From positions 26,503,811-26,567,810 of the forward strand of contig CM040085.1 of assembly GCA_022496805.1 (NCBI GenBank): a stretch of 64,000 nucleotides of DNA, in the 5' to 3' direction. Positions 1,561 to 56,454 of the stretch are shown here, piece after piece (the stretch's first letter is position 1; each line of letters starts with the position of its first letter). The notes under the pieces were generated by a model, which was not told the DNA's origin, searched no databases, and saw nothing but the letters and a program-made list of their open reading frames with translations. The position numbers were made by a program, and so were the translations under genes. The DNA is from Pohlia nutans. Taxonomy: Eukaryota; Streptophyta; Bryopsida; Bryales; Mniaceae.

Positions 1561-1583
1561 CTCCAAGAAAATGTAGGAGCTTA

Positions 1584-9071: not shown

Positions 9072-10398
9072 TTTTTACGTCTTGAGTATCAACTTTTACA
9101 TCATCTTTGTTTCTGGTGTGGAGACTTGAACAAATATCGCTCTTAATTTACACTCAAATAGAACTACAATCCTGCATCCTCACTATAGTAGGAGGAGGTA
9201 AATTTGGTACCTTTTTCTAATTCCGATGATTCCATAAATGGTAGATATTTTAGAACGCATTTTTCGGACAATCGTAGATTGCACATTCTTTAAAAAAAAA
9301 TTAAAGTGTGTTATGGAGTTCTTGTCTTTGTGTTGAGTCGTGACCCTTGAACAAGCATCCCTTGGCAACATCCCAAATCTTGGTGTCATGACTTGAACAA
9401 ATAATAGTCTAAATTCACTTTAGTATTTTCCTTAAAGCGTCATTCATCAAAACATTCGATCAATTTTTAAAATAATAATTAGTAAAGGTAAACCATTCTG
9501 GTTTGAAAATCAATTTTGGAAATTAAAATCTAATTAGCTTCTTTTTATTACTATTAACACTCTTATTAGAATTAGAAATTGTATTGTACAATATGAACAC
9601 CTTTATCAAAATTTAAAAAATCGTTAACTCATAACTAACATGGACTTTACATATGTGATGAAGAGCCATTGCCTTGGCTTTCTGACCCTTTAGTAACCAA
9701 ATTTGGGTCAATGCAACGCTCGAATAATTCAAAATTCATCAAAGAAAAATGAACTTTCATTTTTCAAATGTGGATTGACATTGTTCTCATATGCACACAT
9801 TGCAAAATCCTCACTTAGTTTGAAACACCTACAATTTCAAAATATCTACAATTACAACGCAATTTCAACAAATATTTGCAAATATACAATAGTTCTTATA
9901 GATATGATTTTTTTTTAAACTTATTTATTTATTTTAATTCTCTTGTCTTTTTAGTTATTCACTACTTGTTTACATGAATTGATTACTGTGAACCTTACAA
10001 AAGTTGCCTGGCCATCTCAAATTCATATAAAACCTAAATCATATACCAGATAGTGCGGTCACTTTGAAAAACCATGAAAATGTAGTAAAAATCCGATCGA
10101 TAACTTGTTGTGAAGGTAATTAGGTGTGTAATCTTTTAACATTAAAAGTGTTTCATTTAAAAAAAATGATAACCAAAAAAAATTGTTGATGAAGTTTGGA
10201 GTACAACAATCCCCACATCCATGGTTTTATTGTGAGAACACACTTACCTATACACATAAAACATTGAATCTGAACCATAGTCAGTGAGAGAAAAAGGGTG
10301 AAACCTTTGCAAAGGGCTAAAGAACCTTAAGTAACTAATTTCATTTCAAATCATAAAAATCTAGGAATGACCATTTTGCAAATTAGTATAGACATATA
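9072..10398. other. AT-rich intergenic DNA
   Basis: No gene, repeat structure or RNA feature recognised. Confidence 0.5.
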
Positions 10399-22533: not shown

Positions 22534-23690
22534 ACCATTTCAACATCATATTCATTAAAATGAGAGATTGGGAGCCTCTCAAAATAACATTGTGCATTTG
22601 TAGGTTCAAAAACTGAAGTAGAGTTGAAATAAATTTGAGTTGAGTAGAACTCAATTTTGTAGTTGTTAGCTGCAATTTTCATTAAAAAAAGAATTTTAGA
22701 TGGCCAAAGTGTCTCCCACAAATTATAATTAACAGTAATAATAGTAATCTCCTATATAAGTGCGTATTGTGTCCCTTTTTGAACACCAAGGCATAATGTG
22801 AATGATTGGTGGTAAGAGGCTATTTATCTCATTTAAATGGGTCGGGTTAAATTTCCATTGAATTTGTATGAGCGGGGACGAGATAAGCATGATTTGGAGT
22901 AGTTTAGTGAGCTTTATGTACAGGTAAGAAAGTTTTAACAACCAACTAGCCCCATTCCCAAAATTGTGACAAGTGCTTAGTGAATTAAGAGAATAAAAAT
23001 TGTTCCTGTCTATTACCAATTTTTTCTACTTGCACTCTATTTTCAAAAGAAATTTATAAAATGAAATGAAAAGAAAATAAAATGACATCAACATAGATAC
23101 AAGTCAATATATAATGTAACTATAAACATATTAAATACTACATTTAAGTGCACTTATTGCATATAGTGTTTCTTACAATGTAAAAAAGTAATTCCAATAG
23201 AAATTTATAAAATTGAATCATTGTACTCCAATATGTACCAAGTACTTGACAACACGCAATATAATTTTATATAAAATCATCTCTAATTATATAGAGGAAA
23301 AAATAAAGAATAAAATATCAAAGAGAAACTATGAACATAGCTTTCAAAAATTACAAAGTATATCTATAGTATCTCATACATGCACTATCAAAATTGTACT
23401 AAGCCAAAATTCGATCAATAACACCAATACTAAACAACGTAATTTTAAGAACACATTTCACTATGTCTTTCTTGATCATAGACTTCCATACTTTGATGAG
23501 AAAATTTGTCTCTTGCTAGTCCCGATTATGGATCTTGTCCACTTTCCAACACAATCCTTTGGCAAAGTCCCACCTCCAATATAACTCTTAAGCATTTTAA
23601 TCTTGTGACCTGGGCCAAAAAGATTAAACAAGTACACAATTAGAATGTGTCGAATTAGTGAAAGGATTAGACAAGGCACTTAAAATCTAT
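22534..23690. other. AT-rich intergenic DNA
   Basis: Open frames here (96 and 123 codons) are AT-driven and lack any recognisable motif. No element ends were found. Confidence 0.45.
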
Positions 23691-23697
23691 ACAAACT

Positions 23698-24170
23698 TCA
23701 TATGATCATCAGTTGAATGAAGGGCAACAAAAGGTCACGCACCATCCAAAAAGATGGAAATAGATAATTGTAGAGCTGCCCTAAATAAATATTATCCTCA
23801 ACAAACTCCTCACTGTCTTCATCAAGTATTTCTTCCTCCATTGTTTGATTCAAATAAAAGGCCATAAATCGTCCTTCAATGCTATAGACAATTGATTTGG
23901 CTCTTTTAAAGTTTCCTTCACTAACCGCCAATATAAGATCAAATTCTCAAATTGTCTCATGCACTCCCCACTTCCATCTTCATCGCATAATACTTCCAAA
24001 TATTCGATGAACCCAAATAACCTCTTGTAAATGTCATACACGCTCTACATTGGAGGACAATAGACATCCACTACCAATGAGGCTATAAACTCCGTTTTCT
24101 TTAATCCTCTTGCACAATCTGATTCCTTTACTTTCCTCTAGCAGCCAATCACTATCTGTTTGGTATATAG
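23698..24170 (-). pseudogene. Decayed coding fragment, unknown protein
   Basis: Two overlapping frames on the - strand read as parts of one acidic protein broken by frameshifts. One runs upstream through VYDIYKRLFGFIEYLEVLCD and CMRQFENLI; the other continues as EGNFKRAKSIVYSIEGRF, NQTMEEEILDEDSEEF and YLGQLYNYLFPSFW. The composition is protein-like, with few stops, yet no single frame is intact. I do not recognise the family. It lies about 600 bp outside the left arm of the large inverted repeat. Confidence 0.4.
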
Positions 24171-24771
24171 TTCATGATCGACACACCCATTGAATTTAGA
24201 TAAAATTTGAATTGTTGCACCTATGTATAGCAAACAAATACATCCACCCTTCCCAAAATCTAGGCTTCTCCGGAGGCTTTGAAATTTGGTACCTCCTCAA
24301 TAAGGTAAGGATTTGTAAGCACAAATTCCACATTAATGAAAGATGAAATGGTAGGGAAGTTCACAATTCCAGTTTAATACTCCATCTCCCAACAAAGCAT
24401 CGATGTTGCTAAGCACATGACAGACGAAGATGACTAACATAAGCTTATTAGGAACTTTTTTAGCAATAAAAAAAAATGGGAGACAAACACAAATCTACTT
24501 TTGTTGTCCCTCAAGCTGTGGTCTATTTGAATGTTCAAAACCATAGGAAGAAGAGTCCCAAAAATTGAAACTGTGGACACAAGCCAAACTTATCATATGG
24601 AAATATCTACACAATGCACTAATACACAAAATAGAGGAGCAAGGCTTGTATTCATTAACAATTGTCGTAAGGAATACTTCAAGGGCAATTCAAATTTAGG
24701 TAGCAGCTTTGCTAATCACTACACTCATTAGTTTGAGTCGTGAAATAATATATCCAAAGGTTCCAAAATAT
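24171..24771. other. Flank of the inverted repeat
   Basis: Unique sequence between the decayed fragment and the left arm. No feature was recognised. Confidence 0.4.
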
Positions 24772-25216
24772 ATGCATGAAAATCACGTTGCTTGTATATA
24801 GGCAATCACATCCATTACACAAAGCAATAGTTGTATTGGCCGATGCTCCAAGGGAGGAATGGACATCCACAAAAGTATATCGTTAAGAATTTTGTTACTG
24901 GCCTCCTTCTTGATTCATTTGCATCAAGAACACCATTCTTGTTCTTTTGTGAAGATAGTGGATAAGTGCAGACATGGTCAAAACTTGATGCAAGAGGAAT
25001 TTCAATAGTAGTACATAACATAATTGGCATTAAAGTTGTAAAAGTGAGTGGGCCTACAAATTTAACAATTGAACAGAGAAAGTGTTTTTTAAGAAAAACG
25101 TTTATTAGAAAGTCTTTCAAAAAAGAGAATTATAACAAATTGTACATAGTTCCAGTTCTAGCCAACCTCGTTGCACCTAATTGCAAATTGAAGTGAAGGA
25201 ACCAAACAAAAGGAGT

Positions 25217-26707
25217 TTCAACTCGAGTCGAGTTGAAATAGAGGTAAAAAGTCACTAAAAACTACTTAGAAGATTCATAAACACCGCGGTTTGAGATTGT
25301 TTGGCCCGCTTCTACACCTACGACATCATAAGCCTCTTCTATCATTCTCTTATAATGTGCCATAAACTTCTAGCCTCCGTGATCGCTTCCCTAACCGTTG
25401 TGGGATCCATATTCATATGATTCTTTACACCTTTGCATATGGCACGCACAGACCCGTCCTCGTTCAAAGAAGAGGTGGGCAACGGGTGAGTCTACATCTT
25501 TATGAGATTTGCAAACCCTGCAACCACAGTTTAACTCGAATCGAGTTAAATGACAAGATTCAAATTGTCTTCTCCTACGATTGAGATTAACTTTTCATGG
25601 GTGCGTCATGTTCAACTTGATACGAGTTGAATGGCAAGAGCGTCTGTTTAGCTCGATTCGAGTTGAATGGCAAAATTCAAACTCTCGTTTACTCCATTTG
25701 ACTTTTTAGAGATGCGTCTGTTTAACTCGATTCCAGCTAAATGGGCAAGTTTCAAACCGTCATTTACTTTATTTGACTTTAATTTCATGATGCGTTGAGT
25801 TGAGTGACATTTCATTTAATTTTTCATAAGTGCGTCCATTCAACTCGATTCGAGTTGAATGACAAGAGTGTCTGTTGAGATTGATTTGATTCGAGTTGAA
25901 TGGCAAGATTCAAACCGTCATTTGAATTTTCATAGGTGTGTTCATTCAAGTGAACTCGATTCGAGTTGAATGTCATTTCATTCGACTTTTCATGATGCGT
26001 ACATTCAACTCGGTTCGAGTTGAATGTCATTTCATTTGACTTTTCATGGTGCGTGCATTCAACTTGACTCGAGTTGAATGTCATTTCATTTGTGCGTACA
26101 TTCAACTCGATTCGAGTTGAATGTCATTTCATTCGACTTTTCATGATGCGTACATTCAACTCGGTTCGAGTTGAATGTCATTTCATTTGACTTTTCATGG
26201 TGCGTGCATTCAACTTGACTCGAGTTGAATGTCATTTCATTTGTGCGTACATTCAACTCGATTCGAGCTGAATGTCATTTCATTCGACTTTTCATGATGC
26301 GTACATTCAACTTGACTCGAGCTGAATGTCATTTCATTTTACTTTTCATAATGCATACATACAACTCGACTTGAGTTGAATGTCATTTCATTTGACTTTT
26401 CATGATACGTACATTCAACTCGACTCGAGTTGAATGTCATTTCAATTGACTTTTCATGATGCGTCCATTCAACTCGATTCGAGTTGAATGACATTTCATT
26501 TGACTTTTCATGATGCGTCAATTCAACTCGATTTGAGTTGAATAACATTTCATTTGACTTTTCATAGTGCGTCTATTCAACTCGATTTGAGTTGAATGGT
26601 AAGAGCGTCCGTTCATCTGAGTTGAATGGCAAGAGTGTCCATTCAACTCGATTCGAGTTGAATTTTCATGGGTTTGTCCATTTCAGCTCGATTGGAGCTA
26701 AATGTCA
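25217..26707. repeat. Palindromic satellite array (left arm)
   Basis: About 23 units, each centred on a 23-bp perfect or near-perfect palindrome whose core is CAACTCGATTCGAGTTG. Units are sparse at 25217-25840 and regular at 54 bp from about 25950 to 26600. The spacer reads roughly GTCATTTCATTTGACTTTTC then ATGGTGCGT. Two copies of a 151-bp higher-order unit (54+54+43 bp) are visible at about 25950-26250. Confidence 0.95.
25262..25491 (-). pseudogene. Coding-like exon in the left arm, one frameshift
   Basis: Mirror copy of 37285-37514; see that entry. The sequence is the same in both arms, so the frameshift predates the duplication or has been homogenised. Confidence 0.4.
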
Positions 26708-26929
26708 AAATTCAAACTTCTATGACAATTGACTTTTCATAGTAGAATAGCATTGCTATTTAACTATTCCGAAATTTGCGGCGATAATATCGGAAACCCT
26801 TGCATACGCACTACCGATTTAAAAAATGAAGCAGCAATACAATTGGATTGCAGAATTGAAATTAACTTCATCAATCATCAATGCACCTACATTAAAATGA
26901 AATCTTATCAATAGAACAAATCAAAACTT

Positions 26930-27006
26930 GCATCCTATTCACAAATCAAAACTTGCATCCTATCCACAAATCAAAACTTGCATCCCATTCACAAGTCAAA
27001 ACTTGC
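26930..27006. repeat. Short tandem repeat, unit about 25 bp
   Basis: Three to four copies of CACAAATCAAAACTTGCATC plus five bases. The mirror copy is at about 35619-35695. Confidence 0.8.
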
Positions 27007-27111
27007 ACCGCACCTGGTGGTGATTCTACGAATGTCATGCGTCGTAACCTTGAAACGCAGTAATCAATTCCAAAAAATAAACCTTGACCTTTCAATGCAT
27101 ATTTAAGAAGT

Positions 27112-27373
27112 TAGCAATATCTTACCAAAAGAAGTTGAGGGTTTGGCACCTTCGAAAAGAACTCCTTGACCTTGAGCAACAGTCGCATAAACACGGAGGC
27201 TAAAAACAGAGTGACGCAAAAACACAAAGAGAAACAAGAAAAAAAACTTGAGCTATAGAGGCTCAGAAACACGGAAGTGCATACACACACGCACATGAAC
27301 ACGCAATTGCACAAACACATGAAGCAATGAAAAAAGAATCTTTTCAACCGCACATCAAGCTTTATAGACAATT
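27112..27373 (-). promoter_or_regulatory. Promoter-like segment and short exon (left arm, outward)
   Basis: Mirror copy of 35252-35513 on the - strand, directed away from the spacer toward the palindromic array. See the right-arm entry for the TATA box, leader, ATG and splice donor. Confidence 0.4.
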
Positions 27374-27759
27374 AAGCGGGAAGGATATGGCGCCAATTGC
27401 AATGAAGAATTTCAAATTCTCAACTTTCATCCATGAAATTATAATAGGATCCACAAAGTCCAGTAGATCTCCTTTACAACTGTAGAGGTAAAAAAAGACT
27501 GAAAATTATTGAGACGACAATTGATTCCCACACCAAATTTGGATTTGACATTATTGTACAGTTGACTTTTTTGTGCTGTACAAACTTGCAAATTTTAAAT
27601 ATGAAAAAAAATAAAAATCTACTATATTCCACACTATATAAATCAATAAAAAAATGTAAAAACAATGCACTTTTTGTTTGTACATTTCCAAAAGTGCAGT
27701 CATTAACATTTGAAAAAAAAAAAAAAAACTCTATGTCTAGGGATGTATTGTGTTTTAAT

Positions 27760-28620
27760 TTAGTGTTTTTTTAAAATTATAATTAAACCTAATCCAACTT
27801 ATGAATGACTTAAAAAATAAAAAACATGGCGTGCATGTGCACAAATAGGCTAAATATAGATTGTTAAAATAATTCTACTATTTCTATATAACAACACAAA
27901 GTCATTACATTTAATTGATTCAAATGAAGACTTTGAATTAGATTATATTTCTATGACATGAATGAAAGCCATGTGGACATCTTTTTTTTAATTTAGCATT
28001 TTTAAACTTATAATTACAACCAATTCAAATTATGAGTATCAAAAAAAAATTAAAATATATATGACGATGCATGTGCACATTCATACCATGGGTTCTTAAA
28101 ATAGTTGTAAGACCTATACATCGTACATAGTTTCATTATATTTAGCTTACATATTTGGTTTTGTTTATATTTTATGACATAAATAAATGCTAGCTGACTA
28201 TGATATTCTAAGTTTGGCATTTTATAAATTGAAATTAGACCTAATCCAACTTATGAATACTGTAAAAAAATAAAAAAGTGTCATGCATATATACGCAAAT
28301 AGGCCAAATATGGGTTATAAAATTAATTATGAAATCTATATATAATAACGCAAAATCATTAACATATTCTATTTTAGCTTTTGGTTTTGTTCATATGTTT
28401 ATGACATGAATGAACTATGAAGGAAATTTTGACACAATACTCAAAATTTAGCATTTGTGTATTAGAATTAAACTCATTTCAATTTATAAGCACTGTAAAA
28501 AAGTTTAATTTCTTGCAATGCATGCGCACAAATAGGCTTTGCCTTGGGTTATTAAAAATAATTCTAATATCCAATTTTTATTTCGTATTTTTTTATATAT
28601 ATAAATCAATGTGATGAATA
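27760..28620. repeat. Degenerate tandem repeat, period about 228 bp, four copies
   Basis: The landmark CCTAATCCAACTTATGAAT recurs, with changes, near 27786, 28018, 28240 and 28469. Each is followed by a CATGCATGTGCACAAATAGG-like tract and later TATGACATGAATGAA. A diverged fifth copy lies in the spacer near 31077. Mirror copy at 34005-34865. Confidence 0.75.
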
Positions 28621-29374
28621 ATACATGATTAGGATGACTTTTCAAATTCTAGAAACGGCATAAGAGAGGAGGTGTGTACCTAAATGTCCACTTCTTATAA
28701 TGTAGTTATAATTCAAATTTTGTATATATGTTCAATTTTCACAATAATTATGCAATGTTTCTATTACAATGCATCCTTCATTTCTAACAGTAAATAATAG
28801 GAATTCCTTTTTAAATTTCTATATATAAGAAAATGATTTTTGCATGTATATGATTTTATTAGTTCAAAAAAATAAAAGAAAGTTTATATAATTGTAATTT
28901 CATTAAGTTTTATAGATGAGTTTTTAGGCATTGTAATTGCAATATGCAATATTTATTGTGCAGATAATGCTAGAATTCTATTTCTTTCTAATGAAAATGA
29001 TTAAAAAGTTATTTTTTCAATTTGAATTTTGAACCCGATTTAGAAATAAATGCAAGAAAGGTTGAACTTGGACTATTATAATGATATTTGGAGTTGAATT
29101 AGTTTGTTAATTTTAGAATTAGAATTTTAAAGAAAGGTGGTAAGTATCATTGACTTGTTGGGAAACCTTTAATTTTTGAAAATTGATGAAGTGCACTAAC
29201 ATTAAAAGTTTGAGAAGTAATAACAACAACATACAATGCTTTTTAATGAAGGGTCTTGCTTTAGAATGAATATTTTATTTTGATCAGGTAACTACTATAT
29301 TTTACAAAATTGATTCATATGTTATGGATGTTAATTAACATTAGATATAGATTGCTTTGTATATCAAGGATACA

Positions 29375-29922
29375 CTAACCCTTTAACGCGCATGCGTTCA
29401 AATATTGCACAATGAAGAGATTATTTACAAGTGTTTTAATTCTATCCGAATTAAATAGTATTCATCTACCAAAATCTCTCTTGATTCTTGGGCAAGTTGA
29501 CTATTCTTTGTACTATTTGGATCTTAGAAATAGTTTATTATGATTTTCGAAAGAAATGATCAATTGGTTTATGTCAGGTGTCATTCTTAATATGTAAATT
29601 GAGACCTCAAAGATGATTTTCCAGAATGAGTAGAATCAAATAATGGAAACCATACCATCTCATCGTACATGTTATTTTAATTTATTCCTTTATTTTTAAT
29701 TTTTTTTGTTAACTCGGGATTTTTAATTGAAATTCAAGAGAATAGCTTCCAAAAATGAATCAAAATTATAAATATAGAATATGACAAATGCAACCGTATA
29801 GATGTGATCTTTACAATGATATTTACTAGGTTTCTTTGTTCATCAACTCCATTTTTGGTTTTGATTAAGCATTTTATAACGATTCTTTGAAAACAATGAT
29901 GAATCTGAACGTTAAAGGTTAA
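29375..29922. mobile_element. piggyBac-like MITE, 548-bp family
   Basis: Left end CTAA (mutated TTAA) then CCCTTTAACGCG, right end GTTAAAGG then TTAA. The interior matches the element at 53805-54352, which has the same length (548 bp), and the partial copy at 48906-49222. The inner breakpoint of the inverted repeat falls inside this element at about 29560. Confidence 0.75.
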
Positions 29923-30096
29923 ATCAAAAAAAAAATTATACTCTATTGATTAACCAATGGAGTTAGATTTTGTCACACCTGAATGTTCATTCTAGAGTTC
30001 TGCCTAGTTTTATGGGGGCCTGTTCTGAAGTATACCATTATACAAAAAATAAATCAAAGATGAGCTTCTAACTTGAAGTTCATGTTTCTATACTAG

Positions 30097-30351
30097 GGCG
30101 ATTGCAAGCTACGGTCACCCACATTTTTTGTCGCTGCGCCTGCACCTGCAAACCTTTAAAAACCAATGGAGACAAATATAACAATGATTTTGAGAATCCC
30201 AAAATTTTCCTACTTTCCAAATACATCTTAGAATACTGGAAAATTAAAATTTCTTAAAAACATTTGTTATATTTGTCTTAATTGATTTTTAAAGATTTGC
30301 AGGTGCAGCGCCGCGATAAAAAGCTTGGATGACCGTAGCTTGCAACCACCC
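30097..30351. mobile_element. Hairpin MITE in the spacer
   Basis: A 255-bp hairpin with ends GGGCGATTGCAAGCTACGGT and its near-inverse. The 16-bp stretch TTGCAAGCTACGGTCA is perfectly inverted, with further pairing (TTTGCAGGTGCAGCG and TTGTTATATTTGTCT). ACTAG flanks both sides (30092-30096 and 30352-30356). Confidence 0.65.
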
Positions 30352-31867
30352 ACTAGTGATTGTAAAGTTGTTAGGAATGACACAAAGATAATGATGATAA
30401 AAGTGGGTTGCATAAGATAATGCTTTTAGTCTTATGCAAAGAATTGTAACGATAGTGATGATGTTAGGGGATGAAAATGATAAACTTATGAATGTCATCT
30501 ATTTTTTCATCCATATCAAAAGGTCTATTCATCTCTTATTTAGTAAACGTGCTTGGATTTGACAATCACCAACTTATAGTGATTATGGCATTTTATAACT
30601 TAGATCAATGCTATTGGATATCAAATGAGAGCCATAGTTGTTGATTTTCATGTTAATGTAGTTGATTTTTAAATTTCTTTTTCACACACCTATGATTTTA
30701 ACTTGATTTTTGCCATTGAATGACAGCATAATCTTATGCGAGAGTGTTCAATCTAGCATAATAAAAGGCGCAGTACCAATTGTTTGTTGTGTTAAACTAC
30801 CCCATCAGAACTAATGCAACCATTCTTCCCCAAAAAAATATTCATGGGTGCGGCAAAAAAAATCTCTATATTTTGTCATTGTTGTGCAAATTATTTAGTT
30901 TCTATTACACCAAAATGCGAATCTTCATTGTTAAAATTTTAATGTTTTTAAACACATGAATATATTATATACTTTATTTTACAAAATTGCACATAAATAT
31001 TTGAAAAAAAAACTCCTATGTTTAAGGATTATTGGATTGGATTGGATTTTTCATTTTTCGTAAATCACAATATTAGATCCAATCCAATTCATGAGTACTA
31101 CATTAAAAGAAAATGAAACATGCATGTGCAAATATTGACCATGGATTTTAAAAATAGTTCTAAAAACTATAAATAGTACACTTGTTCATTATATTCAACT
31201 AGGATTTTAAACATATAAATATTACACAAGTTTATTGTATTCAACTCAAGGTTTTAGATAGTTTCATCAATTATGACATGAGACAAAGCAATTTGAATAT
31301 GATAATTTGAATTTAACGTTTTGTACTTCCATTTTCATTCATCTCTACCAATTTTCATTTTCTTTCCTACTAACTCTTAGATATTTGCATGTTATTTTTT
31401 CTATATTATTTTTCTCTTCAATTGATTTTTCATTTCACTCATGATTTGATAATTAAATTTTAAAAAAACTTATGTATGATATTTTGGTAATCAAAATTGT
31501 TCAACACGTTTCTGATGGTTTAACATTGATTGTGTTCAATTTTTAATTTGCATTGACATTATATTTTGAAAGCTCAAAGTTTCTAAAGTCTAAATTTCAA
31601 ATATAATTATAATACTTGTTTGAATTGAATTCCATGAATGTAACCCCTAGCTTCAAAAACAAACGATGTTTGATAGTTGAATTCACTAAGATTTTTCAAT
31701 GTAAGATTAACTCACCAAAAAAGTCGAATATAGCACGCTGGATCAATGTCTTCTAAAAGCTATGTTGAAGGTTAGGTATTAAGGGTATTCATCAATAATT
31801 CTTAACTATTTATTTACCATAATTGTCATGATTATCTTTCCATCTTGTCAATGTAGAAATGAGAAGC

Positions 31868-32202
31868 TCAGGGAAGTCACTTAGTGTAAATTTTGGGTAT
31901 AGATTAGCGAACAAAGGGTATTTAATCGGGGGCTATGAAATAATTGGAGTATTCTACTATTTATAGTATAGTTAGAATATATGCCATCTATATTCTATGA
32001 ATATTCTTATAATATTTTAAAATTAGTTTAAAAACACCCTATATTAGTTCTAGAAATTTATAAATTTTATTCTCAAATGAATAAAAGACGCCCTGTATTA
32101 GTTCTATAAATTTATAAATTTTATTCTCAAATGAAAGACACCCTATATTTTTTCTCTCATAGTTATCTAAATTCTTGAGTCCTTAACAGTGAGTTCCCAG
32201 AG
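31868..32202. mobile_element. hAT-like MITE, uninterrupted relative of 15127-15824
   Basis: A 335-bp element flanked by TGAGAAGC on both sides (31860-31867 and 32203-32210). Ends are TCAGGGAAGTCACTTAGTG and inverted CTCTGGGAACTCAC. Relative to the interrupted copy it is in reverse orientation and carries an extra internal duplication of about 70 bp (repeat of ATAAATTTTATTCTCAAATG). Confidence 0.7.
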
Positions 32203-33034
32203 TGAGAAGCTATGCAAGAGGCAAAGCAAGAAATGAAAGAGTATGTGAGGTCATGTGTTCACTCAACTAGCTAATGCTTGATCTTTAACCATAAAACATT
32301 GGGGCCTAAAACCATGTGGTTAAACTTTTACTAATCCTTTTGATCTACTTTGATATTTACATGGTCTATTTTTAAATTAATTGTTTTTAAAACTGTTTTT
32401 ATTTTTTGGGATGAAATTGCATGTCTTCTATAAGTTATAACAATTCTAGATTCATTTTGTAGAAATTTGAAATTATTGTCAGTTTATCTAAAATTAGGTA
32501 AAAAATGTAAACCATATACAAATAAGCTTGAATATTTTTTTAAATTCACCATAGATGTACATTGCATTGTAAAATATCACGATGCAAATTGATTTTCTAT
32601 GTTATTATGTTATTAAAGTATCAAGAGACTATGATTATAGGATAAAAAATGTAAATCATATACAAATAAGCTTGTATATTACTTAATCATATATACAAAT
32701 TTTCAAATTTTCAAAAAAATTATAGAAATTCAAATTTGTAAGCAACATTTGATTAGTTGCAATTGACTTCAAAAACGATCAAATTAATCGCTAAAATCCA
32801 AAATTCCAAATCAACTAATGAAGAAGTTGATGTTGCCAAATACACCATATACTCAACTTTTGTGATCCATGGCATTCTTCTTTATATTAGCATGAATATT
32901 CAAATGATGTCAACATAAAATATCGTACCAAATGTAAATGTTCTCAATTCTTTTTCAAATCTATCATATGATTAAGCAATAACATATATGTTTTGGGATT
33001 TATCATAATGGAATTCATTAGATAAAAGGCACTT

Positions 33035-33250
33035 ATCCCACCAATAATCAAAACAAACTATTTTTAAGATCCAAACAGTATAAAGAATAGTCAACTTGCA
33101 CAAGAACCAAGAGAAATTTTGGTAGATGAATACAATAGACCCAAGAGAGATTTTGGTAGATGAATACTGTCTAATTCGGATAGAATTAAAACACTTGTAA
33201 ATAATCTCTTCATTGTGCAATATTTGAACGCATGCGCGTTAAAGGGTTAG
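33035..33250. mobile_element. Truncated copy of the 548-bp piggyBac-like MITE (right arm)
   Basis: Only about the first 180 bp of the MITE is present, ending at TTAG (33247-33250). It matches 29375-29560 in reverse. A 34-bp direct duplication (ATTTTGGTAGATGAATAC occurs twice, about 33115-33168) is unique to this arm. Confidence 0.75.
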
Positions 33251-34004
33251 TGTATCCTTGATATACAAAGCAATCTATATCTAATGTTAATTAACATCCA
33301 TAACATATGAATCAATTTTGTAAAATATAGTAGTTACCTGATCAAAATAAAATATTCATTCTAAAGCAAGACCCTTCATTAAAAAGCATTGTATGTTGTT
33401 GTTATTACTTCTCAAACTTTTAATGTTAGTGCACTTCATCAATTTTCAAAAATTAAAGGTTTCCCAACAAGTCAATGATACTTACCACCTTTCTTTAAAA
33501 TTCTAATTCTAAAATTAACAAACTAATTCAACTCCAAATATCATTATAATAGTCCAAGTTCAACCTTTCTTGCATTTATTTCTAAATCGGGTTCAAAATT
33601 CAAATTGAAAAAATAACTTTTTAATCATTTTCATTAGAAAGAAATAGAATTCTAGCATTATCTGCACAATAAATATTGCATATTGCAATTACAATGCCTA
33701 AAAACTCATCTATAAAACTTAATGAAATTACAATTATATAAACTTTCTTTTATTTTTTTGAACTAATAAAATCATATACATGCAAAAATCATTTTCTTAT
33801 ATATAGAAATTTAAAAAGGAATTCCTATTATTTACTGTTAGAAATGAAGGATGCATTGTAATAGAAACATTGCATAATTATTGTGAAAATTGAACATATA
33901 TACAAAATTTGAATTATAACTACATTATAAGAAGTGGACATTTAGGTACACACCTCCTCTCTTATGCCGTTTCTAGAATTTGAAAAGTCATCCTAATCAT
34001 GTAT

Positions 34005-34865
34005 TATTCATCACATTGATTTATATATATAAAAAAATACGAAATAAAAATTGGATATTAGAATTATTTTTAATAACCCAAGGCAAAGCCTATTTGTGCG
34101 CATGCATTGCAAGAAATTAAACTTTTTTACAGTGCTTATAAATTGAAATGAGTTTAATTCTAATACACAAATGCTAAATTTTGAGTATTGTGTCAAAATT
34201 TCCTTCATAGTTCATTCATGTCATAAACATATGAACAAAACCAAAAGCTAAAATAGAATATGTTAATGATTTTGCGTTATTATATATAGATTTCATAATT
34301 AATTTTATAACCCATATTTGGCCTATTTGCGTATATATGCATGACACTTTTTTATTTTTTTACAGTATTCATAAGTTGGATTAGGTCTAATTTCAATTTA
34401 TAAAATGCCAAACTTAGAATATCATAGTCAGCTAGCATTTATTTATGTCATAAAATATAAACAAAACCAAATATGTAAGCTAAATATAATGAAACTATGT
34501 ACGATGTATAGGTCTTACAACTATTTTAAGAACCCATGGTATGAATGTGCACATGCATCGTCATATATATTTTAATTTTTTTTTGATACTCATAATTTGA
34601 ATTGGTTGTAATTATAAGTTTAAAAATGCTAAATTAAAAAAAAGATGTCCACATGGCTTTCATTCATGTCATAGAAATATAATCTAATTCAAAGTCTTCA
34701 TTTGAATCAATTAAATGTAATGACTTTGTGTTGTTATATAGAAATAGTAGAATTATTTTAACAATCTATATTTAGCCTATTTGTGCACATGCACGCCATG
34801 TTTTTTATTTTTTAAGTCATTCATAAGTTGGATTAGGTTTAATTATAATTTTAAAAAAACACTAA
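34005..34865. repeat. Degenerate 228-bp tandem repeat (right arm)
   Basis: Mirror of 27760-28620 with the same four copies in reverse orientation. Confidence 0.75.
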
Positions 34866-35251
34866 ATTAAAACACAATACATCCCTAGACATAGAGTTTT
34901 TTTTTTTTTTTTCAAATGTTAATGACTGCACTTTTGGAAATGTACAAACAAAAAGTGCATTGTTTTTACATTTTTTTATTGATTTATATAGTGTGGAATA
35001 TAGTAGATTTTTATTTTTTTTCATATTTAAAATTTGCAAGTTTGTACAGCACAAAAAAGTCAACTGTACAATAATGTCAAATCCAAATTTGGTGTGGGAA
35101 TCAATTGTCGTCTCAATAATTTTCAGTCTTTTTTTACCTCTACAGTTGTAAAGGAGATCTACTGGACTTTGTGGATCCTATTATAATTTCATGGATGAAA
35201 GTTGAGAATTTGAAATTCTTCATTGCAATTGGCGCCATATCCTTCCCGCTT

Positions 35252-35513
35252 AATTGTCTATAAAGCTTGATGTGCGGTTGAAAAGATTCTTTTTTCATTG
35301 CTTCATGTGTTTGTGCAATTGCGTGTTCATGTGCGTGTGTGTATGCACTTCCGTGTTTCTGAGCCTCTATAGCTCAAGTTTTTTTTCTTGTTTCTCTTTG
35401 TGTTTTTGCGTCACTCTGTTTTTAGCCTCCGTGTTTATGCGACTGTTGCTCAAGGTCAAGGAGTTCTTTTCGAAGGTGCCAAACCCTCAACTTCTTTTGG
35501 TAAGATATTGCTA
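35252..35513 (+). promoter_or_regulatory. Promoter-like segment with short first exon (right arm, outward)
   Basis: A TATAAAG box at 35259-35265 is followed by a pyrimidine-rich leader of about 170 nt. The ATG at 35437 opens a 21-codon frame (MRLLLKVKEFFSKVPNPQLL plus one Leu). It ends exactly at a good splice donor, TTTTG/GTAAGA, at 35499/35500 in phase 0. If real, transcription runs outward through the palindromic array as intron. The 86-codon frame that starts at 35254 is Cys/Phe-rich simple sequence and probably not translated as such. The evidence is motifs only. Confidence 0.4.
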
Positions 35514-35618
35514 ACTTCTTAAATATGCATTGAAAGGTCAAGGTTTATTTTTTGGAATTGATTACTGCGTTTCAAGGTTACGACGCATGACATTCGTAGA
35601 ATCACCACCAGGTGCGGT

Positions 35619-35695
35619 GCAAGTTTTGACTTGTGAATGGGATGCAAGTTTTGATTTGTGGATAGGATGCAAGTTTTGATTTGTGAATAGGATGC
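35619..35695. repeat. Short tandem repeat, unit about 25 bp (right arm)
   Basis: Mirror of 26930-27006: GGATGCAAGTTTTGATTTGT recurs three to four times. Confidence 0.8.
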
Positions 35696-35917
35696 AAGTT
35701 TTGATTTGTTCTATTGATAAGATTTCATTTTAATGTAGGTGCATTGATGATTGATGAAGTTAATTTCAATTCTGCAATCCAATTGTATTGCTGCTTCATT
35801 TTTTAAATCGGTAGTGCGTATGCAAGGGTTTCCGATATTATCGCCGCAAATTTCGGAATAGTTAAATAGCAATGCTATTCTACTATGAAAAGTCAATTGT
35901 CATAGAAGTTTGAATTT

Positions 35918-37560
35918 TGACATTTAGCTCCAATCGAGCTGAAATGGACAAACCCATGAAAATTCAACTCGAATCGAGTTGAATGGACACTCTTGCCATT
36001 CAACTCAGATGAACGGACGCTCTTACCATTCAACTCAAATCGAGTTGAATAGACGCACTATGAAAAGTCAAATGAAATGTTATTCAACTCAAATCGAGTT
36101 GAATTGACGCATCATGAAAAGTCAAATGAAATGTCATTCAACTCGAATCGAGTTGAATGGACGCATCATGAAAAGTCAATTGAAATGACATTCAACTCGA
36201 GTCGAGTTGAATGTACGTATCATGAAAAGTCAAATGAAATGACATTCAACTCAAGTCGAGTTGTATGTATGCATTATGAAAAGTAAAATGAAATGACATT
36301 CAGCTCGAGTCAAGTTGAATGTACGCATCATGAAAAGTCGAATGAAATGACATTCAGCTCGAATCGAGTTGAATGTACGCACAAATGAAATGACATTCAA
36401 CTCGAGTCAAGTTGAATGCACGCACCATGAAAAGTCAAATGAAATGACATTCAACTCGAACCGAGTTGAATGTACGCATCATGAAAAGTCGAATGAAATG
36501 ACATTCAACTCGAATCGAGTTGAATGTACGCACAAATGAAATGACATTCAACTCGAGTCAAGTTGAATGCACGCACCATGAAAAGTCAAATGAAATGACA
36601 TTCAACTCGAACCGAGTTGAATGTACGCATCATGAAAAGTCGAATGAAATGACATTCAACTCGAATCGAGTTGAATGTACGCACAAATGAAATGACATTC
36701 AACTCGAGTCAAGTTGAATGCACGCACCATGAAAAGTCAAATGAAATGACATTCAACTCGAACCGAGTTGAATGTACGCATCATGAAAAGTCGAATGAAA
36801 TGACATTCAACTCGAATCGAGTTCACTTGAATGAACACACCTATGAAAATTCAAATGACGGTTTGAATCTTGCCATTCAACTCGAATCAAATCAATCTCA
36901 ACAGACACTCTTGTCATTCAACTCGAATCGAGTTGAATGGACGCACTTATGAAAAATCAAATGAAATGTCACTCAACTCAACGCATCATGAAATTAAAGT
37001 CAAATAAAGTAAATGACGGTTTGAAACTTGCCCATTTAGCTGGAATCGAGCTAAACAGACGCATCTCTAAAAAGTCAAATGGAGTAAACGAGAGTTTGAA
37101 TTTTGCCATTCAACTCGAATCGAGCTAAACAGACGCTCTTGCCATTCAACTCGTATCAAGTTGAACATGACGCACCCATGAAAAGTTAATCTCAATCGTA
37201 GGAGAAGACAATTTGAATCTTGTCATTTAACTCGATTCGAGTTAAACGGTGGTTGCAGGGTTTGCAAATCTCATAAAGATGTAGACTCACCCGTTGCCCA
37301 CCTCTTCTTTGAACGAGGACGGGTCTGTGCGTGCCATATGCAAAGGTGTAAAGAATCATATGAATATGGATCCCACAACGGTTAGGGAAGCGATCACGGA
37401 GGCTAGAAGTTTATGGCACATTATAAGAGAATGATAGAAGAGGCTTATGATGTCGTAGGTGTAGAAGCGGGCCAAACAATCTCAAACCGCGGTGTTTATG
37501 AATCTTCTAAGTAGTTTTTAGTGACTTTTTACCTCTATTTCAACTCGACTCGAGTTGAAA
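35918..37560. repeat. Palindromic satellite array (right arm)
   Basis: Mirror of the left array but exactly 151 bp longer. It carries three copies of the 54+54+43-bp higher-order unit (about 36370-36830), where the left arm has two. Because 54 is a multiple of three, some stretches stay open as 18-residue repeats (SNRVECTHHEKSNEMTFN); the 43-bp unit breaks these frames. Confidence 0.95.
37285..37514 (+). pseudogene. Coding-like exon in the right arm, one frameshift
   Basis: After a possible acceptor (AAGATGTAG, ending 37284), an open frame reads TSSLNEDGSVRAICKGVKNH and then MDPTTVREAITEARSLWHII. It stops at TGA, but the next frame continues directly as MIEEAYDVVGVEAGQTISNR up to a TAG at 37512-37514. 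About 75 residues, helical and charged, not recognised. Joined in phase 0 to the short exon at 35437-35499 it gives a small protein. More likely it is a captured gene fragment with one frameshift. Confidence 0.4.
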
Positions 37561-38005
37561 CTCCTTTTGTTTGGTTCCTTCACTTCAATTTGCAATTAGG
37601 TGCAACGAGGTTGGCTAGAACTGGAACTATGTACAATTTGTTATAATTCTCTTTTTTGAAAGACTTTCTAATAAACGTTTTTCTTAAAAAACACTTTCTC
37701 TGTTCAATTGTTAAATTTGTAGGCCCACTCACTTTTACAACTTTAATGCCAATTATGTTATGTACTACTATTGAAATTCCTCTTGCATCAAGTTTTGACC
37801 ATGTCTGCACTTATCCACTATCTTCACAAAAGAACAAGAATGGTGTTCTTGATGCAAATGAATCAAGAAGGAGGTCAGTAACAAAATTCTTAACGATATA
37901 CTTTTGTGGATGTCCATTCCTCCCTTGGAGCATCGGCCAATACAACTATTGCTTTGTGTAATGGATGTGATTGCCTATATACAAGCAAGGTGATTTTGAT
38001 GCACT

Positions 38006-38734
38006 GAAGTTCAAAACTAGGCATAGAAAGAGAGGCAACTACAATCTGAAGGAAAAAAGAAAGAATTCTTCCTCGATCCACTGCAGAACTTAATTTAGAT
38101 AAAGAATTTTATGTTCTCAAGTGAAAATACTATAGTACTTAGTCAACATTTGTCCTACATATTAAATACATAATTATGCACTCAAAGAATGTAATTATTT
38201 TTTATAGGTGGTAATTTGATAGCTATGGAGGGACAAATTTGATATTGATCAATTATCTTTTTTCTTATATTCAACGTTTGCACTTGGCCATATCCTAAAA
38301 ATTGTTTCCTTTATGAAGAGACAATAATACGGGATATTTTCAGTTTGTTTAAAAGGAGGACTTAACCAAGTTTAGGGTGCTTAAGACAACAATTAAGTAC
38401 TCCAATACTATTTTCTTTTGGTGGAAAGAGAGAAATTCTAAAGACACATTTGTTTTTAAAGAATCAGATAGAATCCAATACAAAGAGGTCAAAATAGAAG
38501 ATTCTTTTATGTTTTTTTGGTCATATTTAGGAATCACAATGTCAAAGATTTGTAAGTATTGGTTGTAATACATTAGTTTTAATGCAACTCATTTGGATTC
38601 TATGTAGACAATGGTATGTGTATTATTGTTTTGTTCAGTAATAGAATATATGACTATATATCACATTGCGTAAGTGTCATTGTGTAACTCGCCAACCAAT
38701 GTTTTCATGAACTTACATTTTGTATATTTATTTC
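38006..38734. other. Right flank of the inverted repeat
   Basis: AT-rich and outside the duplicated arm. Short frames on both strands show no recognisable protein. Confidence 0.4.
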
Positions 38735-39899
38735 TAGTCTTTGCATGCTACTTTAATCCTTGAATTGGATTGTGACAACAAGTGTATTGCTTCTAATTAT
38801 TCTTTTTTGACTATGGGTAGTTTGTTATATACTGAAAGCGGATTGGGGCACATATTGTATTGGGCAACCACCATGCAATTGACAATGGATTTCTTGATGA
38901 TGCTCATCGATGACAAGGTTATCGATAGTTGTCTAAACAAAAGAAAGTGCCTTCACCTTGTGAGCTCCTTTTTTGCATTAAAAATGCCATCCTCTATCGA
39001 TCTCACCTTGGAATTGTTTTAGGATGAATTCCATCATGCAAAAAAATCTCTAAGCTGAAAAAATGGATGTGGTATTTGCCCTTCAAGTAAGGGGGTTTTG
39101 ATCCATTCATTTAGCAATCCAATATCTTTTTTTAGGACAATGATTTAGATTTTCGTTGCGCTGCTTCAACTGATTCGATTTTGGACTACGGACAATACGC
39201 GATTTTGCAGAGTGACTTGGGACATATTATGTACTCGGCAGCTACTGCGCAGTCGACAATGAACTTTTCGATCATGCCAATTGACGATGGTGTTGTGCAC
39301 AGTCCTCCCAATGGTGTTAAGAGACCGCATCCAATTAGTTCGCCGTCACCACTGAAAGCTCAAACCATTTCAACTTCGCCGCGGTACCGCTCTACATGTG
39401 ATAGAATGCCTCAAAGGAAGCTGTATGATGATAATCATGGACTCATGGCGACGAATGAGAAAGTCCATGAAACTAAGGTACGCGTCAAGTTCAACAATCC
39501 TTTACATATCACTTTAGTTAGTCTTTTTTTGTGGTGATGTATTTTTATCCGACTCATGTTTTAGTTTTATTGTATGTAGTGCGCAAATGGCTTGCCGAAT
39601 TCAAGTCAAATGGTGTTGACTCCCTCAATATGATTGCCAAACATGCCCCTTCTCCTTTCAAAGCACCTTCATTGGTACGTCCACAAGTTCCTGCACTGTC
39701 TACCCAAAAATCAAAGACCCATGTCGACTAAGCTCAATTGGGGTATGGTTGACGTCCATGGGATGCATGGGAGCTGAAGTCATTGGAGAAACAGAGAGAA
39801 GAGTTATATCAACAATACAAGAACATGGATATTGGATATAGTCAAGATCCCGAGATTTTGAAGGCATTAGCAAAAATGAAGAGTAGATGGCATTATTGA
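38735..39899 (+). pseudogene. Decayed multi-exon gene with a duplicated exon, unknown protein
   Basis: Three exon-like pieces on one strand. Exon copy 1 (from 38735, after TTTATTTCTAG) ends in a stop at 39022. Exon copy 2 (39136-39477, 114 codons, acceptor TTTTTTTAG, donor AAG/GTACGC) is intact. The two align over GLGHILYWATTMQLTMDF and DLGHIMYSAATAQSTMNF, and over MLIDDKVIDS and MPIDDGVVHS. The last piece (39580-39899) reads WLAEFKSNGVDSLNMIAKHA, passes in-frame TAA and TGA codons near 39729-39753, and resumes as PWDAWELKSLEKQREELYQQ to a final TGA. The family is not recognised. It lies directly beyond the right arm and may be the tail of the gene whose first exons lie inside that arm. Confidence 0.5.
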
Positions 39900-40489
39900 T
39901 GCTTTTGTTCATGTGAAAAATGTCTTAGCACTGTTTTATTAAAAGTTTTGCCATCTGTATAGTCTAGTGTTAGATTTACAATATACTTAGTGTTGCAGTG
40001 AATTTAGATTTCAAACATTTTAATTAATATGTATTTTTCTGTATATGAAGGATCGCAAAAGATATTGTACGGTTGTGCAACTCATTGTTCTTTTTCTATT
40101 AATACAAGTATATTTCATATCATTTTCTGTCAAATAGTTAATTTCTACCTCTACGGTGCAATGTGTACTCACATGGAGTTGCTTTTCTGACTTTAATTTC
40201 TGGAAATTGTGCATTTCTGAAACTCTCATTATCAAAGAATTCTCTCATTTTAATGAATATGATGTTTTTCTAAAAAAACCTCTACTAACCAAGAATGACA
40301 TATGATGAATTGACATAACTCTTGAATGAAGCACTCAACAATCAACAACATAGGTGGAAAGTTAATTAAGCACTCACATGGAGCTTTTCTTGTTTGGATT
40401 CCTTTAGCCACTCTGAGAGTTTATCAAAATGTGATCAATATTCTTCTAAAATTAAATTAAAAAAAACTCTTTGAATTTTTAAAGGTTAC
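39900..40489. other. Intergenic DNA
   Basis: No gene or element boundary recognised. Confidence 0.4.
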
Positions 40490-45827: not shown

Positions 45828-46977
45828 TTAGCCGAAGCGAGCCCGGTACGAAGCCCTCAGCTCCTTCACAGTGGCAGCGTTAACACCGAAGGACTTCTCA
45901 ATCACGGCGCTCGTGATGTTTGGATCAAATATCTACACAGGCTCAAGGTCAGTCATGGGCCCTGTCTCAGTTGCATGCACTGGAAAATTCATATGAAATC
46001 ATCATTCTGAGCCTAAGTTCATTCAAAAACATGAGAATGACCGTTAGCTAGATTCGTGGAGAACGATAGGTCGATGGTGCGTGCAAATGAAATGATTACA
46101 CCGACAGACACGGTACCTGATTGACGGTGAAGTGGAGTCCGGGGTTCTGGGACGTGAGCGTGTTGAAGGTGATGGCGGTCTCGTTGCCCACATTGAGCTG
46201 GAAGTGCGAGAGGCCGCGGGGGAATATGGTCACGTCGCCGGGGTACAGCGTGGCGGCGTACAGGACGCTGTCATCGCTCACGAAGCCCGTGTACAGGCTG
46301 CCCTTTAGCACGAACAGCGTCTCGGCGGCGCGCGGGTGCGTGTGCAGCGGCACCACGCCACCGATGGCGAAGTCCAGGCGCCCGTGCGTGATGCCCTGCG
46401 TGTTGATGCCCGGGTAAGCCTCCGGAGTCGCCAGCGTTGCAATGGCGCCCGTGGGACTCGAGGAAGGGTCGCCAACTGAACGTACAATTCAAGACCAAAC
46501 CACAGTACAGTCACACTAATTAATTGCAGTCACTCAGAACAATCACTTACTTGCCGGTTTTACTGCGTATATACGTCAGGTGCCTGATTGCAACTTGTGA
46601 TTTATTCAAATCGCCGCTTGCGCAGCTGTTATCCACAAAATCGACAGGCGCGTGAAAACACCATGGTGTGTGATGCATGCAGCGCGCATGCAGTGAGCCG
46701 TGGATTAGAATTGTATGATCGAGAATGTGCGATCTGGTCTATACGTACCTGCTTCTCGAAAGCCTCTGTAAACGAAGTCTTCGGAGGTGACTTTGGTGCG
46801 GGGTATGCAAGGGAGCCCATTCACCAGCGACGCATTGGACGATAGATCCGCCACGCAGAAGTCTTGCAAGGGGTCGGGATCCGCAGCCATCACAGCAGTG
46901 CCCACGATGACGATCGCTGCACACGCCATGACGAGCAGCGTGTTCCAGCTCTGGCTGCTACTTGTGGACCTTGCCAT
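45828..46977 (-). CDS. Germin-like protein (secreted cupin)
   Basis: Three exons (46749-46977, 46117-46475, 45828-45932) join in phase to give 230 residues, the usual germin-like length. The donors AG/GTACGTA and CAG/GTACCG and the acceptors GTTCAG and GTGTAG are canonical. Residues 1-31 form a signal peptide with a hydrophobic core, leaving a mature start near ADPDPLQDFC. Cys41 and Cys57 match the conserved N-terminal disulfide. Cupin box 1 (PLHTHPRAAETLFVLKG) supplies His121, His123 and Glu128. Box 2 (GDVTIFPRGLSHFQLN) supplies His167. All four manganese ligands are present. The family is apoplastic, with oxalate oxidase or superoxide dismutase activity in some members; which activity applies here cannot be told. 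A TATA box lies upstream at 47130-47137. A degraded partial duplicate lies 4 kb away. Confidence 0.95.
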
Positions 46978-47129
46978 TGCTGCAGTTGAATTGCAGCTCA
47001 GACCCGTTGTTAGGGAGACGAACCCCCAGCTAGATGATGGATATGAGTCGCAGGTAATCAATTGCAACAAACGTGGTTGTGAAGAAGGAAAGATGGGCGA
47101 CTGATGATCTATGCCGCTGCACGGGCGAT

Positions 47130-47137
47130 TTATATAG
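47130..47137 (-). promoter_or_regulatory. TATA box of the germin-like gene
   Basis: Reads CTATATAA on the - strand, about 153 bp upstream of the start codon at 46977, in otherwise GC-rich sequence. The spacing suits a leader of about 120 nt. Confidence 0.6.
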
Positions 47138-48147
47138 CCTGGTTGTTTGCAGAACTCGTCGGAGAGCTAGTATTTCGATCGCTAGTTCCGGCCGGAGCAC
47201 CCGCAGTCGTGTGTGAGCTGTCCCGGAGACTGTCTGGAATCGTTGCGGAAGTAAGTGTGGATCGGCCTCAGAAATTCCATCAGCTTGCGGCTCCGAGAAA
47301 GCACTACGCACTCGCGAGGACGTTCCCGACAGGTCATGGAGTCGGAACTAGGTAGAGCTTGCATTGTTGGGAATGAAACGAGTATCGATGAAAGTGTTCA
47401 ATTCCAGAAGCAGATGATAACATGCTTGAGACGCAGATTTGATGGCGCATTGTCGAGCAAGTCGATGGTGTTCTCAGAGTTCTAAATGATTTCATTTCGG
47501 ACCAGGTTGTGGACCAAGTTGCAAGGATATTTGTGGGTAGGCCATCGTGATACTTTGATAGGAAAGCGGGCGTGGATTAATGGCGAAGACTTGAGCTAGT
47601 AGTTGACATGCATGTTCCAAGGTATGACCAAGGGAGCATGTGCTTAGGCGCAGGTTCCTTGCAAAACTGCTCTGTGGTCAATCGACGAGTCTCTCGGTCA
47701 CATGAAATGACCTTGTGTTCCCTGAAATCCATGGATAAACCCCTGAATGCCCATATTCCTCTCCAGATGAATCCTCAAACTTAAAAGGTCATAAGGAGAA
47801 AATTGTATTTAACAGTATAATTATTGCACCAAGAAACAATGACTTAACATTCCTGGACCCACACCCTTTACATTGTAGAGAAGCTGGTATTAAAATAATC
47901 CCATTCTCCAACCCTCGTGCTTGGACTTGTTGAAGTTAGGGAAAATTCTCATTGATTCAGCTCTGATCGTTTAACAGATTCTGAGGTGAACAGTATGGAG
48001 GCTCAGAACCTTATGCATGAATAGAGTGTGCATATCGACATCGCTGCATGCCTGTAAGTATTATAATATAATATGATTTAAGTTGTAGATGGCTGATATG
48101 TACTAGATAACCGGTCGAGCCGCGTAGCGGCGAGTCGGTTATCGTAC
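47138..48147. other. Upstream and intergenic DNA of the germin-like gene
   Basis: 47138-47480 is GC-rich with overlapping short frames on both strands that I treat as non-coding. A single degenerate CCCCTGAATGCCC at about 47745 resembles a TTAA-element end without a partner. At 48110-48145 a near-palindrome is built on AACCGGTCGAGCCGC and GCGGCGAGTCGGTT. Confidence 0.4.
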
Positions 48148-48905: not shown

Positions 48906-49222
48906 ACAATGATTTTCTAAAATAAGTAGAATCAAATAACGGAAACCATACCATCTCGTAGTGCATGTTATTCCAATGTCATTACAATATTTTTTAATTT
49001 TTTTGTGTTAATTTGGGATTTTTAAATGAATTTCAAGAGAAAACCTTGCAAAATTAATTAAAAAATATTAATAAAAAAACATGATAAATTCAACTCTACA
49101 GATGTGATCTTCACATTGACATTTACAACTTTGCTTTGTACATCAATTCCATTTTTGTTATTCATCAAACATTTTATACCAAATCTTTGGAAACAATGTT
49201 GAATTGAGACGTTAAAGGGTAA
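48906..49222. mobile_element. 3' fragment of the 548-bp piggyBac-like MITE
   Basis: Shares long stretches with 54040-54352 (AGTAGAATCAAATAA, GGAAACCATACCATCTCGTA, GATGTGATCTTCACATTGAC) and ends GTTAAAGGG with a mutated TTAA. The left part is missing. Confidence 0.75.
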
Positions 49223-49702
49223 AATGAACACAGGGTGCTCATTTTTGCATCTGCAACCCATTATTTGCTAACCCATTATTGGCTACGGGCCTCCACTCTC
49301 GGTGGACATTTTCAATTCATTTCATCTCATACTTTAATATTTTTTACACATGCACTTTATTTGAACCTTCATCATTTTTAAATTTGACAGTCCAGTTGAC
49401 ACTGATTACCATGGACAAATGGTCATTGACACAAAATAATTCAAACTTTCACAACAAGTGACATATCATCGTATGATTCGTTGGAATATATTAAAAGGTG
49501 AAATGGAAATTGCATTTCAATAACAAAGTGCCAAATTTGAAGATGAGTATACTCATACTTTTTTTCAATAAGTTTTAAGAAAAAGTATAACAATTGAAAA
49601 AAAAAAGAAGCAATTAGCAGTCACGTGTAATACAATGCATCACAACATTTGTTCAAACACTTTAACCAAAACATTCCTTAGAAAATGTTTCGGAAAAATA
49701 CT
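49223..49702. other. Intergenic DNA
   Basis: AT-rich; nothing recognised. Confidence 0.45.
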
Positions 49703-53334: not shown

Positions 53335-53804
53335 GGCCCCGTGAGAATCACCTTCGCCTTAACAAAATTTGATCGCAAAAATTTGATCGCAATATGCAAT
53401 GGAAGCGAAGGTTGTACAGGCAAGGGCGAGGGACGGCAGGCACGCACTCTGTTTTCTGACGACGGCCTGCAAAGCGTAACTTACTAATCGTTACTGGTCG
53501 GTCGTCCGTCGCTCTTCTTCGTCTCCTTCTTCGGCTCAGTTCTCAGTTTTCCTAGAATGGGAAGAAAACGAGTGAGAGTACCGTACGCGAGGGTCTGACT
53601 CAGACAGCCTGGTGTCGAAATTGCATTTCCCACGTCAGATTTAAAAAGGTCCACGTCACCATAAACCAACCACAAAACCACACGTGACAATGTTTACAAA
53701 GTTATGTCGAACGTGACCACAACGTAAGGTATTCTCAACAATGCCCTGCGAACTTACCTGTATCTCCATAGCAGATCTGACGTGTTTAGGCACACTGACC
53801 AACA
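53335..53804. other. Promoter region of the alpha-SNAP gene
   Basis: GC-rich 5' leader with TC-rich tracts (53500-53560), then intergenic DNA up to the MITE at 53805. No TATA box was identified with confidence. Confidence 0.4.
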
Positions 53805-54352: not shown

Positions 54353-54768
54353 AACTGTATCTCATCTAATACAAAAATTGGGCTTAATAATTTTATTTTA
54401 TTTTGGAAGCTCCGGTTATTACAAATTTGAAGTATTTTTTGGGTGTTAATTTATATAAAATGAAATGTTTATCACAAGAGTACCATACCTGGCTATCAGG
54501 ATCAGCAACTCTTGCAAAATATTTTATCTTTTTTTCCGAAATGATGAGAATATTTTCTAAGATTATGTGAATATTCTCTAAGATTCTCGTTTTCACCATA
54601 GAAAATAAACCAAATTGGGCTTCTATTTTAATGATTATTTTTTGCCGACCTTGACGGCTAGGTATGGTGTTTAATCTTTAATTGCCTAACTGTTTAATCT
54701 TTTGTGTTTTATTTTTATATATACAATGCGACTTCTATAGGACTTTTAAATACATCAATTAGAACCTT
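54353..54768. other. Intergenic DNA
   Basis: AT-rich; nothing recognised. Confidence 0.45.
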
Positions 54769-56331: not shown

Positions 56332-56454
56332 ACACCTCCCTGTTTAGTTAGAGGCATAAGACTTGTTGCTCTTGATCCCTCCACTCCACCAGAATGGATG
56401 TGCCCTGACATCATGCCATCACATTTTCGTCCACCAGTCCTTAGGGCTTGAGTT

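Follow-up and report, generated by a model that had tools for sequence, protein, structure and literature searches.

A long inverted repeat inside a giant terminal-inverted-repeat transposon of the moss Pohlia nutans, with sequence evidence for concerted evolution of its arms

A 64,000-nt stretch of the Pohlia nutans genome (assembly GCA_022496805.1, contig CM040085.1, positions 26,503,811 to 26,567,810 of the forward strand), here called the window, contains a giant, nearly perfect inverted repeat. We found that this repeat is an internal part of a larger terminal inverted repeat (TIR) transposon. The element has recognizable ends and a target site duplication (TSD), the internal repeat is shared by other copies, the two arms of a copy are sisters, and the spacer between the arms is present in both orientations in the assembly. 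These observations are very probably explained by an internal inverted duplication, inherited within a subfamily of non-autonomous giant TIR transposons, whose arms have been converted and whose spacer has been flipped by crossing-over. We postulate that the ancestor, an element ~20 kb long that carried a gene for a DUF7869 protein, lost its middle and that the inverted duplication took its place. The DUF7869 protein of intact relatives would then move the non-autonomous copies through the common 26-bp TIRs, while the arms of one copy would pair, gene conversion would homogenize them, and crossing-over between the paired arms would invert the spacer. Coordinates below and in Table 1 are those of the window unless another locus is named.

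Self-comparison of the window and global alignment bore out what had been read from the sequence alone, namely, nearly identical arms of about 4.8 and 5.0 kb around a 3.5-kb spacer; the arms measure 4,773 and 4,958 bp, with 3,500 bp between them, and their length and identity exclude chance. Over 4.68 kb (24773 to 29453), the arms differ by six mismatches (at 24778, 24787, 24901, 25528, 25725, and 25818) and one 151-bp indel. All six mismatches are confined to the outer ~1.05 kb (P of about 1.5e-4 under an even spread), a pattern that a conversion patch would leave. The innermost ~92 bp (29454 to 29545 and 33046 to 33171) are diverged and lie in a miniature inverted-repeat transposable element (MITE) with piggyBac-like ends (CCCTTTA...TAAAGG, adjoining TAA/TTAA), so the inner breakpoint does cut through such an element, as the sequence-only reading had it. 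Two more copies of this MITE occur in the window (48909 to 49224 and 53802 to 54353).

The repeat starts 2.2 kb inward from each end of the transposon. Matching 26-bp TIRs, which both carry AACATCATATTCATTAAAATGAGAGA (element ends, AACATC), and a TSD of fixed length (4 bp) are features of a TIR (class II, DDE/D) DNA transposon. We searched an assembly of 697.8 Mb in 332 contigs; the published assembly, of 698.20 Mb in 22 chromosomes and 313 scaffolds, was made from PacBio reads (mean length, 13.73 kb) with Illumina polishing and Hi-C, and DNA transposons are given as 23.68% of it (PMC9247546). With a left-end probe, 17 other matches start at 22542 or no more than 4 bp away, 16 of them at 84 to 98% identity, and a few weaker matches start further inside the element; the three 98 to 99% matches of the right-end probe all end at 40266. 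In the copies that were fetched, homology to the window extends beyond the arms on either side. A 25-mer of the TIR (≤2 mismatches) is found 583 times in the genome (298 forward and 285 reverse), and its reversed-sequence control gave 0 genome matches.

Exact 4-bp TSDs flank four of the six subfamily copies in which both ends were read (TTTC in the window, TAGT at C1:48.78M, TACT at C8, and GAAA at C11:0.53M) and, across the family at large, 8 of 10 pairs. An internally deleted copy, C20, lies between TACT and AACT, which are alike in three of four bases; the flanks of C17 are mirror images, and it hence has no TSD, and no TSD match was found at the ends of a gene-bearing element on C3. A search of the genome for further arms and outer ends, which the sequence-only reading had proposed, returned 12 facing pairs 6 to 20 kb apart, plus single ends, with a 601-bp outer-arm probe, together with the matching 26-bp TIR ends. 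The earlier suggestion of a large foldback transposon thus stands as to the transposon but not as to the arms, which are internal, the mobile ends being the TIRs 2.2 kb outside them. Likewise, a segmental inverted duplication is a fitting description of what happened inside the element, though not if a host segment was meant.

A foldback-type transposon (24773 to 38003) could instead have inserted, nested, into the larger element. The outer ends of the inverted repeat are sharp (TGCATSAAAATCAC), and two relatives that bear the gene lack it, as a nested insertion would have it. However, there is no duplication at 24772/38004, and, among the copies fetched, the repeat of C1b and C8 lies between the same left-hand and right-hand flanks, and the readable flanks of the other scored copies belong to the same family. 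In addition, the remnant of a DUF7869 gene in the left flank was not found continuing in the right flank, which argues against a nested insertion, since that would be flanked by both parts. We consider a nested origin quite improbable.

The possibility that a single arm was placed twice during assembly deserves very little credence. A simple artefact is unlikely because the arms in the window differ (by six bases and a 151-bp unit), the sequences outside them are not alike, and other insertion sites show the arrangement again, each with sequence of its own. The C17 locus (27899000 to 27959189) is the point in favor of an artefact: it is a near-perfect palindrome whose arms, 99.9 to 100% alike where sampled, take in the left half of the element and extend over at least 17 kb, but not 21 kb, of flanking DNA. 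This palindrome may be a mis-assembly; either that, or it is an inverted duplication that started at the repeat.

Of 12 loci examined, 10 copies contributed 17 arms to a tree of the unique part of the arm (26700 to 29250), in which the left arm pairs with the right arm in all seven two-arm copies, with bootstrap support of 100. C17 is a special case among the seven, as its flanks are mirrored too. Within these copies, the arms differ at 0/2551, 0/2528, 0/2538, 2/2544, 2/2045, 7/2021, and 4/1990 positions (99.65 to 100% alike), whereas divergence between copies is 0.8 to 14% (identity, 86 to 99%). Longer alignments in nine copies placed the arms 0.06 to 2.1% apart, with 2/3531 differences in the window (main segment), 5/4343 in C1b, 3/1716 in C8, 3/3906 in C11, 12/4139 in C23a, 9/3953 in C23b, 6/3486 in C23d, 17/1098 in C23c, and 63/3009 in C16, where near-identical stretches stand alongside diverged ones. 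The copies are nonetheless free to diverge, since their outer flanks differ from those of the window, by ~2% in near copies and by 16% in C11.

The junctions between flank and repeat are shared. Right-flank homology ends at 38005 (C1b, C8, and C11) or 38012 (C23a to C23c) in six of the seven other loci with a right-flank match, and left-flank homology reaches 24758 to 24772 in five copies (C17, C1b, C8, C10, and C11). In distant copies, the junction is not exact to the base: in C11, unmatched DNA of 0.56 kb lies next to the right flank, and the C23 arms match the window only from 24847 or further in. Shared junctions imply that the duplication is common and old and the identity young, and these comparisons indicate that the arms undergo concerted evolution, being old as structures and young as sequences. 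It had been proposed from the sequence alone that the arms arose recently or are kept alike by conversion; the data favor conversion and do not support a single recent origin, as copies 7 to 14% apart share both the repeat and its right-flank junction.

Arms could also be homogenized only during transposition, if an intermediate (a hairpin, gap repair from one arm, or a replicative form) rebuilt one arm and drift followed. Arm differences are few everywhere (0 to 7 per 2.0 to 2.6 kb), and drift since insertion would fit them, but the limitation of the differences in the window to the outer ~1 kb, next to 3.5 kb of identical sequence, resembles a conversion patch, and the patchwork of C16 is of the same kind. 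We regard homogenization confined to transposition as possible, if on the whole doubtful.

Using the outer flanks as the reference, we could score the orientation of the spacer in nine of the 12 loci (C10, C23c, and C23d from one flank only or from a partial flank). The spacer lies the same way as in the window in five of the nine (the window, C11, C23a, C23b, and C23d) and is inverted in the other four (C1b, C8, C10, and C23c). The arm tree splits a branch with the window and C11 from a branch with C23 and C16; C23c is outside the tree, its arm being 82% like the window, as in other C23 copies. Because both orientations are present in both groups, we infer that the inversion probably happened more than once. 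In long-armed copies, the orientation could reflect the choice of the assembler, but the arms of C8 and C23c are so short (1.7 and 1.1 kb) relative to the 13.7-kb mean read that such reads should have resolved them. By eye, two copies have open reading frames (ORFs) resembling those of retrotransposons nested within their spacers (C11:0.54M, from 8798 of one extracted piece into the next, and, at 617 to 2998 of its extracted piece, another copy), which helps to account for the variation in spacer length.

Read-through RNA from the repeat could form a putative hairpin that feeds small interfering RNAs silencing the family. The geometry is suitable, as arms of 4.8 to 5.0 kb would give long double-stranded RNA if transcribed, but the inverted spacer is left unexplained. 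Such a role, which would be compatible with a converted and flipped internal duplication, seems to us unlikely.

Both gene-bearing relatives that were read (C3:27.32M and C1:42.67M) encode a DUF7869 protein, in C3:27.32M at 997 to 3870 of the extracted piece. The predicted model of DUF7869 (PF25273) has an RNase-H-fold core, and the top VIA rows for it are the Mos1, Metnase, and integrase cores. DUF7869 is a likely transposase of this giant transposon family, and the domain may mark out a superfamily of transposases in giant elements. The remnant in the left flank of the window copy covers the second half of the protein, in pieces, and ends 16 bp short of the outer end of the repeat; as this flank holds a broken piece of the gene, we call the window copy non-autonomous. 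Neither C3 nor C1:42.67M has an internal repeat, at minimum lengths of 100 or 60 bp. C3 also carries four larger ORFs (5529 to 7157, 7328 to 8770, and 8977 to 9993 of one extracted piece and 696 to 1505 of another), one of which is a NIF-type phosphatase and three of which had no Pfam match; a Pfam scan of six C3 ORFs gave nothing but DUF7869 and NIF above the cut-off. We found no mention of DUF7869 in the literature searched, most subscription journals lying outside that search, and among the matches listed, whether on giant transposons in mosses or on internal repeats that undergo conversion, none concerned this family.

The 54-bp tandem arrays of both arms are based on a 23-bp palindrome, ATTCAACTCGANTCGAGTTGAAT. 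It has 41 matches (≤3 mismatches) in the window, every one inside the two arms, and 0 matches in five doublet shuffles. C3 and C1:42.67M have 34 and 25 matches, mostly in two arrays each, and the palindrome array is thus a family feature that probably predates the inverted repeat. As a guess, the palindromes may be putative binding sites for a protein of the element. A more far-reaching idea is that the repeat works in the life cycle of the element, with an extrachromosomal, plasmid-like phase, arm-to-arm recombination that brings about amplification and copy correction, and palindromes that serve as replication, partition, or transposase-binding sites for its own protein; we think this very improbable.

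Table 1. Features of the transposon copy and its internal inverted repeat in the window
Feature	Position	Strand	Evidence
Whole transposon copy, 17,725 bp, non-autonomous	22542..40266		End-probe searches; TIR; TSD
Left TIR, 26 bp	22542..22567	+	End comparison; genome-wide 25-mer count
Right TIR, 26 bp	40241..40266	-	End comparison; genome-wide 25-mer count
TSD TTTC, left	22538..22541		
TSD TTTC, right	40267..40270		
Broken DUF7869 gene remnant (amino acids 485-955 of C3 copy)	23396..24757	-	tblastn E 2e-35, 1e-25; 36-53% identity
Left arm of internal inverted repeat	24773..29545	+	Self-comparison; global alignment
ATTCAACTCGANTCGAGTTGAAT palindrome array, left arm; one further match at 25216	25529..26663	+	
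Zero-difference tract vs 33172-36672 (3,501 bp), presumed last conversion tract	25953..29453	+	Global alignment
MITE with piggyBac-like ends at inner end of left arm	29372..29923	+	Related copies 53802-54353, 48909-49224; ends
Spacer, inverted relative to outer flanks in 4/9 scorable copies	29546..33045	+	Flank-based orientation scoring
Right arm of internal inverted repeat	33046..38003	-	Self-comparison; global alignment
Start of the same MITE, truncated and inverted, at inner end of right arm	33046..33253	-	Self-comparison; alignment
ATTCAACTCGANTCGAGTTGAAT palindrome array, right arm; one further match at 37538	35962..37247	-	
Extra 151-bp tandem unit, right arm only	36673..36823	-	Global alignment; tandem array
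Weaker second copy of small-ORF remnant	38741-38983		40% amino acid identity
Small-ORF remnant of gene-bearing element	39136..39480	+	72% amino acid identity

Elsewhere in the window, a cluster of long ORFs (55449 to 61734) looks by eye like another transposable element, and a protein-kinase ORF and germin-like ORFs, also recognized by eye (2742 to 4139 and 46096 to 47166), are probably ordinary host genes.

Within a single plant genome, the copies provide a ready-made set of insertions from which gene conversion and crossing-over between linked inverted repeats can be gauged for each copy separately. The analysis also points to DUF7869 as a likely transposase of these giant transposons, a family whose ends number several hundred in the Pohlia nutans genome.

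The inverted repeat of plastid genomes likewise has arms that undergo copy correction, and the single-copy region there exists as two isomers, but it belongs to an organelle chromosome, whereas the Pohlia repeat lies in a nuclear transposon. Galileo and other Foldback-type transposons share long, internally repetitive inverted repeats and a tendency to rearrangement; their long repeats are terminal, whereas the termini of the Pohlia element are 26-bp TIRs outside the repeat. With ends 2.2 kb outside both arms, the element is not a Foldback or long-TIR transposon. Polinton/Maverick elements, which carry polymerase B and capsid genes, make a 6-bp TSD, and that of the Pohlia element is 4 bp, which speaks against membership.

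Teratorn, a giant transposon of medaka, resembles the Pohlia element in its long internal inverted repeats and in an inverted middle, 80 kb of which are inverted between two subtypes (PMC6431247, PMC5601938). It differs in its size of ~180 kb, its piggyBac transposase, its herpesvirus genes, and the extra TIRs that bound its repeats (PMC5601938, PMC6431247). The piggyBac/Teratorn rule of a TTAA target duplication and CCYT ends (PMC5601938) is at odds with the TSDs TTTC, TAGT, TACT, and GAAA and the AACATC ends, and we reject membership in that group. In the flip/flop region of yeast chromosome XIV, near-identical 4-kb inverted repeats are described as continually homogenized and the middle as repeatedly re-inverted (PMC9731477). 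The likeness lies in homogenized inverted repeats around a re-inverting spacer, but the yeast region is a host locus with genes, whereas the Pohlia repeat sits within a dispersed transposon (PMC9731477).
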